DNA of 45,498 bases from a virus, in the IMG/VR virus record IMGVR_UViG_3300022602_004802, positions 1 through 45,498 of that record. One strand, 5' to 3'. The first letter of the stretch is position 1. Every line of letters begins with the position of its first letter. The notes under the pieces are model-generated. The model did not search any database. It saw only the letters and a list, made by a program, of their open reading frames with translations, and had not been told where the DNA came from. The position numbers and the translations under genes are program-made. Positions 13,700-35,944 of this stretch are shown here, in pieces.

Positions 13700-13831
13700 A
13701 TGATAGTAATAGGTTATCAAGGAATCGGTAAATCTACTTTATCAAAAACCAATGACAAGTATATTGATTTAGAAAGTGGAAATTTCTTTGTTGATGGAAC
13801 AAGGCAAACCATTTTTTTAAACGCTAAATAG
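13700..13831 (+). pseudogene. Truncated P-loop NTPase gene
   Basis: A 43-codon frame starts MIVIGYQGIGKSTL, a clear Walker A motif, and continues IDLESGNFFVDG. From memory, related phage proteins of Bacteroidota are several times longer. Here the frame ends at a TAG that is the first triplet of the palindromic operator at 13829. The gene seems to have been cut when the operator and downstream module were joined. The gap 13574-13699 has no convincing gene; a 19-codon frame at 13598-13657 is too short to support. Confidence 0.55.
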
Positions 13832-13868
13832 TAATTTTTACTATTTCAGTCAAAAAATCATAATTTTG
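13826..13868 (+). promoter_or_regulatory. Palindromic operator and promoter, site 2 (methyltransferase/packaging)
   Basis: AAATAGTAA-TTT-TTACTATTT (13826-13846) is a 21-bp perfect palindrome apart from its centre. Its centre (13836) lies exactly 25 bp before the -7 box TAATTTTG (13861-13868), so it covers the place of the -33 box. The ATG at 13873 lies 5 bases after the box, predicting a leaderless or nearly leaderless mRNA. The same layout is seen at 30267. Confidence 0.75.
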
Positions 13869-13872
13869 AGTT

Positions 13873-15132
13873 ATGGCGAAAACTGATCAAATCATTAAAG
13901 TCAAGATTTCCGATATAAAACCCAACCCCAAGAATCCCAGGGTAATAAAGGACGACAAGTTCAAGAAACTTGTTAAATCATTAACAGAATTCCCCGAAAT
14001 GCTCGAAAAGCGGCCTTTAATCTGCTTTACCGATAAAGACAGTAAGCTCGTTGTATTGGGCGGAAACATGCGCCTGAAAGCGGCAAATCAAATAGGCTTA
14101 AAGGAATTGCCGGTTATGCTTGCAGACGATTGGACGGAAGAAAAGAAAAACGAATTCCTGATAAAAGATAATGTTGGATTTGGAGAGTGGGATTGGGATG
14201 ATCTCGCCAATGAATGGGATGCCGAACAATTAACCGAATGGGGATTAGATATTCCCGATTTTAAAACAGCGTTGGAGGCACAAGAAGATGATTTTGATGG
14301 TGTGCCACCAAAAGAACCGATTACTGTATTGGGAGATTTGTATGAGTTGAATGAGCACCGTGTTTTATGCGGCGATAGTACGCAAACAGATACTTTTGAA
14401 AAGCTATTCGCCGGGCAATTAGCGGATTTAGTTGTTACAGATCCACCTTACAATGTGGATTATCAGGGTGGAGATAGAACTGAAATGAAAGCTTTGCATA
14501 GAAGGACAGATGGATTAAAAATCGCCAATGATAAAATGGACGATAATCAGTTCTATAAATTTTTATATGATTTTTTTACAGCACTTGGAGCATATACAAA
14601 AGCCGGAGGCGCATGGTACGTTTGGCATGCTGACATGGAATCTGTAAATTTTAGGACCGCATTTAAAGATTCAGGACTTACTCCAAAGCAAAACCTTATT
14701 TGGGAAAAAGATGTGATGGTTATGGGAAGACAAGACTATCATTGGCAACATGAGCCATGTTTGTATGGATGGAAAGAAGGTGCAGCACACGGTTGGTACA
14801 GCGATAGAAAACAAACCACTATTTTAAAATTTGAAAGACCGAGAATATCAAAAGAGCATCCAACTATGAAACCAATCCCTTTAATCGCTTATCAAATAGG
14901 CAATAGTTCAAAACAGGGCGATATTGTGGCAGACGGTTTTGGTGGTTCCGGTACAACGCTTATGGCTTCCGATCAGATGCAAAGAAAGGCTTACTTGGTT
15001 GAACTTGATCCTAAATATTGCGATGTAATAGTAGCAAGGTTTATTAAATATCGTAAAGAAACGGCAAGCAGCTTAGTGATAAAGAGAAACGGCAAGCAGC
15101 TTAGTGATAAAGAGAAACGGCAAGCAGCTTAG
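13873..15132 (+). CDS. ParB-like/DNA adenine methyltransferase fusion
   Basis: The 419-residue protein has an N-terminal ParB/sulfiredoxin-like domain (about 5-110; LGGNMRLKAAN at 62-72). A beta-class N6-adenine (or N4-cytosine) methyltransferase domain follows, with catalytic DPPY at 190-193 and SAM-binding GFGGSGTT at 355-362. Such fusions lie beside terminase genes in many phages. The last 23 codons cross a 28-bp tandem repeat (15061-15140), which changes frame with each copy. With the three copies here the protein ends KEKRQAA; with two it would end KEIEKFIENTTK, which looks more native. Confidence 0.9.
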   Translation: MAKTDQIIKVKISDIKPNPKNPRVIKDDKFKKLVKSLTEFPEMLEKRPLICFTDKDSKLVVLGGNMRLKAANQIGLKELPVMLADDWTEEKKNEFLIKDNVGFGEWDWDDLANEWDAEQLTEWGLDIPDFKTALEAQEDDFDGVPPKEPITVLGDLYELNEHRVLCGDSTQTDTFEKLFAGQLADLVVTDPPYNVDYQGGDRTEMKALHRRTDGLKIANDKMDDNQFYKFLYDFFTALGAYTKAGGAWYVWHADMESVNFRTAFKDSGLTPKQNLIWEKDVMVMGRQDYHWQHEPCLYGWKEGAAHGWYSDRKQTTILKFERPRISKEHPTMKPIPLIAYQIGNSSKQGDIVADGFGGSGTTLMASDQMQRKAYLVELDPKYCDVIVARFIKYRKETASSLVIKRNGKQLSDKEKRQAA

Positions 15133-15140
15133 TGATAAAG
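15061..15140 (+). repeat. 28-bp tandem repeat across the end of the methyltransferase gene
   Basis: Almost three copies of a 28-bp unit (starting ACGGCAAGCAGCTTAGTGAT) begin at 15061, 15089 and 15117; the third loses identity after 24 bases. Since 28 is not a multiple of three, each copy is read in another frame, and copy number decides where the methyltransferase ends and how it overlaps the next gene. The third copy also provides the GTG start of the downstream gene. Confidence 0.95.
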
Positions 15141-15494
15141 AAATTGAAAAGTTTATCGAAAACACGACAAAATAACAGAGGCAATACAGTGGCAGGCAAA
15201 CCGACTATATCAAATCTTAAACCTTTCAAGAAAGGACAATCCGGCAATCCCAACGGCAGACCAAAGAAACTGCCAAAATTGGACGAGTTAATGGCTGAAA
15301 TATTGGGAGAGGAAAAGGATGGTGTTACCGCTGCAAAAGCTATTCTTGCCAAATTAAGGCAAAAGGCGGTTTCAGGAGACATCAAAGCAGCAGAACTACT
15401 TTTAAATCGAGGATATGGCAAGCCAAAAGAAACAATTGATCAGAAAATCAGTATTGATAAGCCGATTAGTGAAAGAGTAGTAATATTCAAGTAA
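15132..15494 (+). CDS. DUF5681-type protein, probable terminase small subunit
   Basis: The 120-residue basic protein has the KPFKKGQSGNPNGRPKK signature typical of DUF5681 at about residues 31-47, then a helical part (ELMAEILGEEKDGVTAAKAILAKLRQ). It directly precedes the large terminase, the usual place of the small subunit, which binds phage DNA to start packaging. The proposed start is a GTG overlapping the methyltransferase stop by one base, inside the tandem repeat. The true start may be further downstream. Confidence 0.7.
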   Translation: MIKKLKSLSKTRQNNRGNTVAGKPTISNLKPFKKGQSGNPNGRPKKLPKLDELMAEILGEEKDGVTAAKAILAKLRQKAVSGDIKAAELLLNRGYGKPKETIDQKISIDKPISERVVIFK

Positions 15495-15495
15495 T

Positions 15496-34400: not shown

Positions 34401-34403
34401 AAC

Positions 34404-35795
34404 ATGAATGTAAACTTATCAATATCAGCCACGCTAAATAACAGCAGTAATCAATTCGTTATTGCTGCTTATTCCGATAAGGGGTTGACTACTTTAGTAG
34501 AGCAACAAAACCCAACGAAGCCATACAGCAATCCTTTTCAGGTAACGTTTACGACCTTATCGGCGAATATCATGTATTATTTTGCGTTGTGGGAAAGCCC
34601 CGATGGAACGGCGAGTGGAACGATACGTAATACATGCAATTTTCAACCTTCTTCGCAATCGGTTAATTTAAGAGCAGATTTGTGGCTGACTGCAGATGTA
34701 ACAAGCGGATTTGCTTCGGGTAGTTCAGGTTATACGGATCCCACCAATTCTTTGGCCGGATGGGATTATGATTTACAAGTGCCTGGTTATGGCCCTTATC
34801 AGTCCGGAGTGGACTATACTTTAGACAGTAATAATAATTTTGCCCTTACAGGCGGTAATACGGTTCAGCCGGGGCAAAGGATGGTTTTGATATTTAAACC
34901 TCAAATTTCGCAAGGTGCGGCTTCTACACCGGCATTAATTACGAGTTCGGTTACTTTAACCACGACCACAAACCTAAACAGTACCTATAAAAACAAAGCC
35001 ATTCTGTTACAGGGTGCAGCAGCTTCATTTATAGTGAATCTTCCTGCGTTATCCACCATGACCGATTTTGATGTGCTTTACTTCTATTCTTACGGAGGCT
35101 CACATAAAAACGTATCTATCCGCTGTTATGGAACAGATAAAATTCAGCGCAATACACAAGTAACAAAAATTGTATTGGCGCAAAATGAAGTATTAAAATT
35201 ATTCAGGGTAACCATTTCGGGAACTTCTTATTGGTATGTGGATGGTTCTTTGCCTGGTCTCGATTCAGTTGGTCAGTTTGTAGAAACGTATGATTTAAGT
35301 GGGTTCTTAAATGCCATTCCATTAGATGGTTCATTGGTTTCACGTGCAACTTATGAAAGGCTGTGGGATAAGGTTTCTTCTTATGGTTCAGGTATATTAA
35401 TTTCTGATTCTAATTTCAATAATGTAGATGGAAATGGCAATTATATCAACAAAGGATTTTTCACCACAGGAGACGGTTCTACAACATTCCGTGTTCCTGA
35501 TTTAAGATTATATCCAACGAGAAGGGTAGTGGATGGAAGTGTAAGAATTGCAGGAAGTTTTGAAGATGAATTGGTGGGTTCACATGATCATACCATGCAC
35601 GGACAAGGTGCTATTACCGGAGGAGGACACAGTTGGTATTTAAGTGCGAGTGGAGGCAACCGATATTCAGGTAGTGGTGGAGATTCTTTTGGTGGAGTAC
35701 AAACAACGCCCGATGCTAATACACGAACAGGAAAAAATACTGCAACAGAAAACAGAACAAGAGACACAGGAACATATTTGTTGATTCGGATATAG
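34404..35795 (+). CDS. Tail-collar-like fibre protein
   Basis: The 463-residue protein has a C-terminal tail-collar-like region: LSGFLNAIPLDGSLVSRATY, then FFTTGDGSTTFRVPDLR, GSHDHTMHGQG and the end RTRDTGTYLLIRI. The N-terminal half is beta-rich, with a structure like short fibre proteins. The TAG stop (35793-35795) is the first triplet of a palindromic operator and is backed by an in-frame TAA. It is probably part of the receptor-binding apparatus. Confidence 0.8.
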   Translation: MNVNLSISATLNNSSNQFVIAAYSDKGLTTLVEQQNPTKPYSNPFQVTFTTLSANIMYYFALWESPDGTASGTIRNTCNFQPSSQSVNLRADLWLTADVTSGFASGSSGYTDPTNSLAGWDYDLQVPGYGPYQSGVDYTLDSNNNFALTGGNTVQPGQRMVLIFKPQISQGAASTPALITSSVTLTTTTNLNSTYKNKAILLQGAAASFIVNLPALSTMTDFDVLYFYSYGGSHKNVSIRCYGTDKIQRNTQVTKIVLAQNEVLKLFRVTISGTSYWYVDGSLPGLDSVGQFVETYDLSGFLNAIPLDGSLVSRATYERLWDKVSSYGSGILISDSNFNNVDGNGNYINKGFFTTGDGSTTFRVPDLRLYPTRRVVDGSVRIAGSFEDELVGSHDHTMHGQGAITGGGHSWYLSASGGNRYSGSGGDSFGGVQTTPDANTRTGKNTATENRTRDTGTYLLIRI

Positions 35796-35813
35796 TAAAT
35801 ATTACTATCTTTA
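35792..35813 (+). promoter_or_regulatory. Palindromic operator and promoter, site 9 (short RNA before the fibre gene)
   Basis: ATAGTAA-ATA-TTACTAT (35792-35808) overlaps the -7 box TATCTTTA (35806-35813). A -33 box is not clear. A terminator follows at 35855, so the predicted RNA is about 65 nt. The arrangement repeats that at 20915-21001. Confidence 0.65.
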
Positions 35814-35854
35814 TTAAGTAAAAAGAGGATGATTACATTTTAAATGCAACGTTC

Positions 35855-35883
35855 AAGCCCCGATGGTAAAAGGGGCTTTTTTT
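35855..35883 (+). terminator. Intrinsic terminator upstream of the fibre promoter
   Basis: AAGCCCC (35855-35861) pairs with GGGGCTT (35872-35878) around a 10-base loop, followed by TTTTT. It ends the short transcript from the operator at 35792 and any readthrough from the tail genes. Confidence 0.85.
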
Positions 35884-35902
35884 ATTGCATGCAAAATTTG
35901 TT

Positions 35903-35944
35903 AATAGTAAATTTTACTATTTGTGATAAAAACACTTAATTTTA
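35903..35944 (+). promoter_or_regulatory. Palindromic operator and promoter, site 10 (tail fibre)
   Basis: AATAGTAAA-T-TTTACTATT (35903-35921) has its centre at 35912, again exactly 25 bp before the -7-like box TAATTTTA (35937-35944). The fibre gene starts at 35961. This is the third site with the 25-bp layout. Confidence 0.7.

Follow-up and report, generated by a model that had tools for sequence, protein, structure and literature searches.

The SOS regulators of Bacteroidetes belong to the S24 proteins. Their binding motif is CTAA-N5-TTAG, as tested by electrophoretic mobility shift assay, and paralogous regulators recognize diverged boxes in which the 4-N5-4 frame is retained (PMC8565304). 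Two phage systems are also close. In P1, 11 late promoters carry a conserved 9-bp inverted repeat that is bound by the activator Lpa (PMC10695390). In GIL01, host LexA and the LexA-like gp6 act directly at phage promoters, with gp6, a LexA-type DNA-binding protein, activating from a palindrome at -43.5, over the -35 element (PMC6182141). Here, we consider a palindrome, TAGTAA-N3-TTACTA (TAGTAANNNTTACTA), that occurs exactly ten times in IMG/VR virus record IMGVR_UViG_3300022602_004802, positions 1-45,498 of which are considered here (hereafter, the window). Judging from its sequence, the record is a temperate tailed phage with Bacteroidota as the host group. The ten sites lie from 7207 to 35905, ahead of units beyond the early operon, and each reads AGTA-N5-TACT, a 13-bp dyad that shares the 4-N5-4 frame with the SOS box. 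We consider it rather probable that these palindromes are operators of the LexA/CI type that overlie core promoter elements, with the half-site CTAA changed to (T)AGTA, and that they repress the late units.

Two placements on promoter boxes

The sites, all on the plus strand, fall into two classes according to the distance between the palindrome and the -7 box:

7207-7221, plus strand: putative operator, class 1; the palindrome ends in the TA that opens the -7 box TATTTTTG (7220-7227)
13829-13843, plus strand: putative operator, class 2; TTTA at 13837-13840, then 20 bp, then the -7 box TAATTTTG (13861-13868); upstream of the ParB-methylase gene at 13873
16851-16865, plus strand: putative operator, class 1; -7 box TATTTTTA (16864-16871); upstream of the portal gene at 16890
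20924-20938, plus strand: putative operator, class 1; TTTG at 20915-20918; -7-like TACCTTAG (20937-20944)
21031-21045, plus strand: putative operator, class 1; TTTG at 21022-21025; -7 box TACATTTG (21044-21051); upstream of the major capsid gene
25476-25490, plus strand: putative operator, class 1; TTTG at 25467-25470; -7 box TATCTTTG (25489-25496)
25824-25838, plus strand: putative operator, class 1; -7 box TACCTTTA (25837-25844); ATG of a tail-region gene at 25850
30268-30282, plus strand: putative operator, class 2; TTTA at 30276-30279; -7 box TAGTTTTG (30300-30307)
35793-35807, plus strand: putative operator, class 1; -7 box TATCTTTA (35806-35813)
35905-35919, plus strand: putative operator, class 2; TTTA at 35913-35916; -7 box TAATTTTA (35937-35944); upstream of the gene at 35961

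Allowing up to 2 mismatches, 19 palindromes were observed against 3.15 expected in shuffles. Separate repeat and palindrome scans at 2 mismatches had too little power.

The offset was counted from the palindrome center up to the TA with which a TAnnTTT(G/A) box begins, and positions -2 to +45 of each center were scanned on both strands. On the plus strand, the sole offset is 6 at six sites (7207, 16851, 21031, 25476, 25824 and 35793) and 25 at three (13829, 30268 and 35905), and the tenth site, 20924, presents TACCTTAG at offset 6, one base off the consensus. On the minus strand, none of the ten palindromes has such a box within the scanned 45 bp. Given a background of 0.0024 boxes per noncoding position and 0.026 per TA, the chance of at least 6 of 10 palindromes being followed by NNTTTR is p = 6e-8, and that of three sites having one common offset is p = 4e-7 to 2e-6 (about 1e-6). 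The two fixed geometries proposed in an earlier note on this DNA are thus confirmed, with neither offset explained by chance. That note also had the last TA of the palindrome double as the first TA of the -7 box at seven sites, which is true of six perfect boxes and, in imperfect form, of 20924; one of the seven, 7207, lies outside the range that it quoted (13826-35944).

TTTG stands exactly 5 bases before the palindrome, with an 18-bp spacer, at 20924, 21031 and 25476, as had been stated. The class-1 -33 element is a perfect TTTG at 3/7 sites, with a 3-of-4 match at three others. In class 2, the center triplets are TTT, TTT and ATT, so that the reversal of the central bases described for two of the three sites is found, and, because the third center base is T, the right half of the palindrome reads TTTA and covers the -33 position, again as claimed. 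This TTTA is present in all three class-2 sites vs 2/7 class-1 sites, and the TTT and ATT centers fit a -33 role of the right half, which should be taken as suggestive only. From the TTTA to the TA of the -7 box there are 20 bp, and the commonest spacing from TTG to TAnnTTTG in related phages is 19-20 bp. As a general promoter feature, a fixed TTAC ahead of the -7 box was considered and rejected, being found in only 4/684 candidates in relatives.

The arrangement would be explained if one dimeric LexA/CI-type repressor were to bind all ten sites on ordinary Bacteroidota promoters (-33 TTTG, -7 TAnnTTTG). In class 1, the operator would occupy the spacer, its final TA being shared with the -7 box, and in class 2 TTTA would replace the -33 TTTG, so that an operator sitting on the -33 element would have its center 25 bp upstream. 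Either core element could be supplied by the right half of the palindrome, hence the two placements. In both classes, a dimer covering one core element would keep RNA polymerase off the promoter, and loss of the repressor would open all palindrome-bearing units together.

The earlier note had instead suggested two modes for one regulator, with the spacer sites repressing or twisting and the upstream sites activating. The two discrete offsets agree with this, and the repressor site in the spacer has its counterpart at the host LexA-like S24 genes described below. The activator contact for the 25-bp class is not supported, as the -33-like TTTA accounts for the position without an activator, relatives have class-2 sites at both 25 and 27 with an SOS-box operator, and, unlike in MerR-type spacer operators, the spacer is not lengthened (18 bp, as compared to mostly 19-20 in relatives and 21 at the early promoter). 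Such a two-mode model is, in our view, very improbable.

SOS boxes in host genomes and in related phages

For comparison with hosts, we considered the surroundings of S24 genes in fetched genomes of Chitinophagaceae, the family of a metagenome-assembled genome with a related terminase. At 17 LexA-like S24 genes, a -7-like TA box comes immediately after CTAA-N5-TTAG, and in 13 of these 17 promoters TTTG precedes CTAA by 5-6 bp. TTAG with such a -7-like box is otherwise rare in the same host DNA (21/711, those 17 included). At several of these genes, the SOS box is followed by TAnnTTAG, which can be compared with the imperfect box at 20924. Taking the 17 host promoters as the criterion (a box that occupies the spacer, with the -7 TA where it ends and TTTG 5-6 bp upstream), the SOS layout is found at the seven class-1 sites, three of them with TTTG, and is not seen at the three class-2 sites. 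The likeness to the Bacteroidetes SOS operators (PMC8565304) thus lies in a 4-N5-4 dyad that fills the -33/-7 spacer, with a -7-like TA next to it and TTTG 5-6 bp upstream. The window differs in the half-site (AGTA vs CTAA), in the genes concerned (late phage genes vs repair genes) and in that its binder is only predicted. CTAA/TTAG half-sites occur at 0/10 window sites, and the sole CTAA-N5-TTAG in the window (38118) is in coding DNA. As the palindrome is fused to promoter boxes in the manner of the host SOS switch, a LexA-like repressor with a recognition sequence unlike that of the host probably keeps the later genes silent, and as the layout is that of the SOS box with a changed half-site, the binder is probably encoded by the phage.

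Could the sites instead be SOS boxes of a host lineage, the LexA-like regulator of which drifted to AGTA-N5-TACT? Paralogous regulators with diverged boxes in the 4-N5-4 frame are known (PMC8565304), and related phages that lack an S24 gene carry the host-type box. However, the window box together with a -7 box is at background level in 394 Chitinophagaceae and 395 phylum-wide genomes, and, among the host S24 genes examined, those that present a clear box have CTAA-N5-TTAG. We thus find such drift quite unlikely. A host regulon using the exact window box was rejected on the same background level in these 789 sampled Bacteroidota genomes, which makes a widespread host regulator unlikely and argues for a phage-encoded binder.

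The window palindrome is found in 0/40 related phage records. In IMG/VR, 84 stretches match the class-1 pattern, and 0/49 records that were searched whole hold a comparable set (at most 2 sites, except for a tandem array in L048); the class-2 pattern matches at one site each. The array (L048 5701-5859) consists of five AGTAA-N3-TTACT cores flanked by TTTCCAC, has no promoter context and is probably unrelated.

What related phages do carry is the host-type box. CTAA-N5-TTAG is enriched in their noncoding DNA (19, vs 0-7 at other gaps, with a class mean of 6.9) and is found at late-region promoters in G057 (5 sites), G052 (4), G051 (3) and L092, none of which has an S24 gene. In L092, the boxes are upstream of the terminase, portal and capsid genes, the portal gene being one that the window precedes with its own site (16851). 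In G052, the site at 6566 has an offset of 25 and precedes the orthologue of the window gene (ParB-methylase) that follows class-2 site 13829. An offset of 27 is seen in G053 and, at the capsid promoter, in L092; other offsets are 4 or 7 (class-1-like), and 13-18 elsewhere. The 25-bp spacing that the earlier note looked for in homologous phages is therefore kept in kind, not to the base. In an IMG/VR scan, 46 stretches contained TTTG-N5/6-CTAA-N5-TTAG-TAnnTTTG vs 18 for a composition-matched pattern, and in one of the 46 (L274) the gene that follows resembles, judging by its sequence, that of a terminase large subunit. A third palindrome, TAACT-N6-AGTTA, is present in four copies each in G066 and G067, with class-1 geometry.

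The sites might alternatively serve activation, with an early phage protein bound to the palindrome at some ten late promoters and recruiting or remodeling the RNA polymerase of the host, in the way of P1 Lpa or GIL01 gp6. As in P1 (PMC10695390), one inverted repeat is found at about ten dispersed late promoters, and several window -33 boxes are imperfect. Moreover, when the -7 box is taken as -11 to -4 for estimating start sites, the palindrome center falls at about -17 in class 1 and about -36 in class 2, the latter close to the -43.5 of gp6, where one palindrome likewise lies over the -35 region. However, the gp6 site differs from the window sites in sequence and position (PMC6182141), and the window sites, unlike the activating P1 repeats, coincide with core elements and match a repressor layout, class 1 being arranged as the host LexA-like boxes are. 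TTTG or TTTA is kept at many sites, and host-type SOS boxes stand at the late promoters of related phages. We therefore consider activation rather unlikely, although it is the strongest of the alternatives.

Candidate binders and the surroundings of the sites

The binder of the window palindrome is probably phage-encoded, with two candidates near the left end, listed here together with the early promoter and the integrase:

692-1441, minus strand: S24-peptidase CI/LexA-like repressor, candidate binder (Pfam PF00717, 7e-11; PHROG transcriptional repressor)
1-270, minus strand: the other candidate binder, a Cro/C1-type helix-turn-helix (HTH) protein of 89 amino acids lying downstream of the S24 gene (HTH_26 matched weakly, under the cut-off; likeness to RAP44 gp09)
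1477-1513, plus strand: early promoter with TTTG, a 21-bp spacer and TACCTTTG (1506-1513), and its own inverted repeat, TATATAGAC-N13-GTCTATATA
44359-45498: integrase

The gene order is that of the S24 CI-like repressor on the minus strand, the rightward early promoter at 1506, DnaB-type replication genes, packaging, capsid and tail. Relatives of the terminase are IMG/VR contigs (41-71% identity) and the one Chitinophagaceae genome mentioned above. Searches for RNA families and tRNAs found none. On the same strand, the window has the S24 protein, one of 137 amino acids and the 89-amino-acid protein, and Riemerella phage RAP44 has S24, 150 amino acids, 89 amino acids and integrase, its S24 and 89-amino-acid proteins being detectably similar to those of the window (25% over 89 amino acids between the HTH protein and gp09). 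RAP44 (L269) itself carries, at 12761, 20119, 24512 and 28936, a larger palindrome, gatTTTAAAA-N5-TTTTAAAatc, between transcription units and with no adjoining -7 box, the copy at 24512 being imperfect. Besides these two candidates, the HTH proteins of the phage comprise a Cro-like one (1516-1752) and one at 9409. Among the candidate HTH proteins there was no unambiguous activator, although a comparison with P1 Lpa was not run. TAGTAA-N3-TTACTA is absent from the early promoter, and, as the inverted repeat there differs, the idea that CI operator and late operator are one was rejected.

Two pairs of operators, 20924-21045 (107 bp apart) and 35793-35919 (112 bp apart), each flank a terminator (20975-20996, and a terminator-like hairpin at about 35855-35885). 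In both pairs, the first operator shares bases with the stop codon of the gene ahead of it (20087-20926 and 34404-35795, respectively). Because of the downstream terminator and the gene-end position, the first promoter of each pair would produce no more than a short transcript, roughly 50-70 nt long. Mycobacteriophage stoperators, such as those of L5, are similar in that one repressor site is repeated genome-wide, with some copies at gene ends. Stoperators, however, are asymmetric and stop elongation, whereas the window sites have symmetry and a fixed position relative to promoter boxes.

Operator 25824 is abutted by the right copy of a 17-bp perfect inverted repeat (AATAAAACCCCGAAAAG at 25519-25535, CTTTTCGGGGTTTTATT at 25806-25822) around a small open reading frame. 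The leader that follows the first operator promoter (7228-7345) forms a long hairpin by pairing of UAAUAGCGACA with UGUCGCUAUUA (z -2.1), followed by a GCCGGGC/GCCCGGC stem with a T run, and AATAGCGACAATGG is repeated at the start codon of the gene at 7368; an attenuator or antisense leader is possible. Other repeats were seen in related phages. L132 has four tandem copies of TGTAGT-N6-ACTACA at 4479-4567 with 23-24 bp spacing, perhaps an iteron or partition site, and L116 has at least 7 copies of AAGCATGCTT over 1.4 kb (1171-2548), mostly with a T run after them, in and between genes.

Probable negative control of the late region

Several observations weigh against repression by a phage protein. 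The late genes of all well-studied phages are stated to be positively controlled (PMC10695390), and 4/7 class-1 sites are without a perfect TTTG at 17-18 bp. The S24 gene promoter and the early promoter both lack the palindrome, so that the S24 protein should be read only as a candidate binder. The SOS boxes of G051, G052, G057 and L092 would need a host regulator, as these phages have no S24 gene, and a narrowly distributed host regulator is possible for the window. Nonetheless, the core elements at the palindrome promoters are mostly present rather than missing, and this, together with the LexA-like layout and the SOS boxes at late promoters of relatives, leads us to favor repression with some confidence. 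What we observe directly is the palindromes, their two spacings, the layout at host genes and the SOS boxes of relatives; repression, the identity of the binding protein and regulation through DNA damage we infer.

More tentatively, and with less than even confidence, we suggest that this phage group places its late genes under the host SOS repressor, and that this member may have swapped the SOS half-site at ten promoters for a private operator, with the geometry kept and its own LexA/CI-type protein in direct negative control. If true, LexA-type operators fused to core elements would hold a whole late region under negative control, in contrast to the norm of positive control (PMC10695390). 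The passage from host box to private box would then offer a natural series on how operator specificity changes across a whole phage regulon, and would give a concise rule by which repressible Bacteroidota promoters could be designed.

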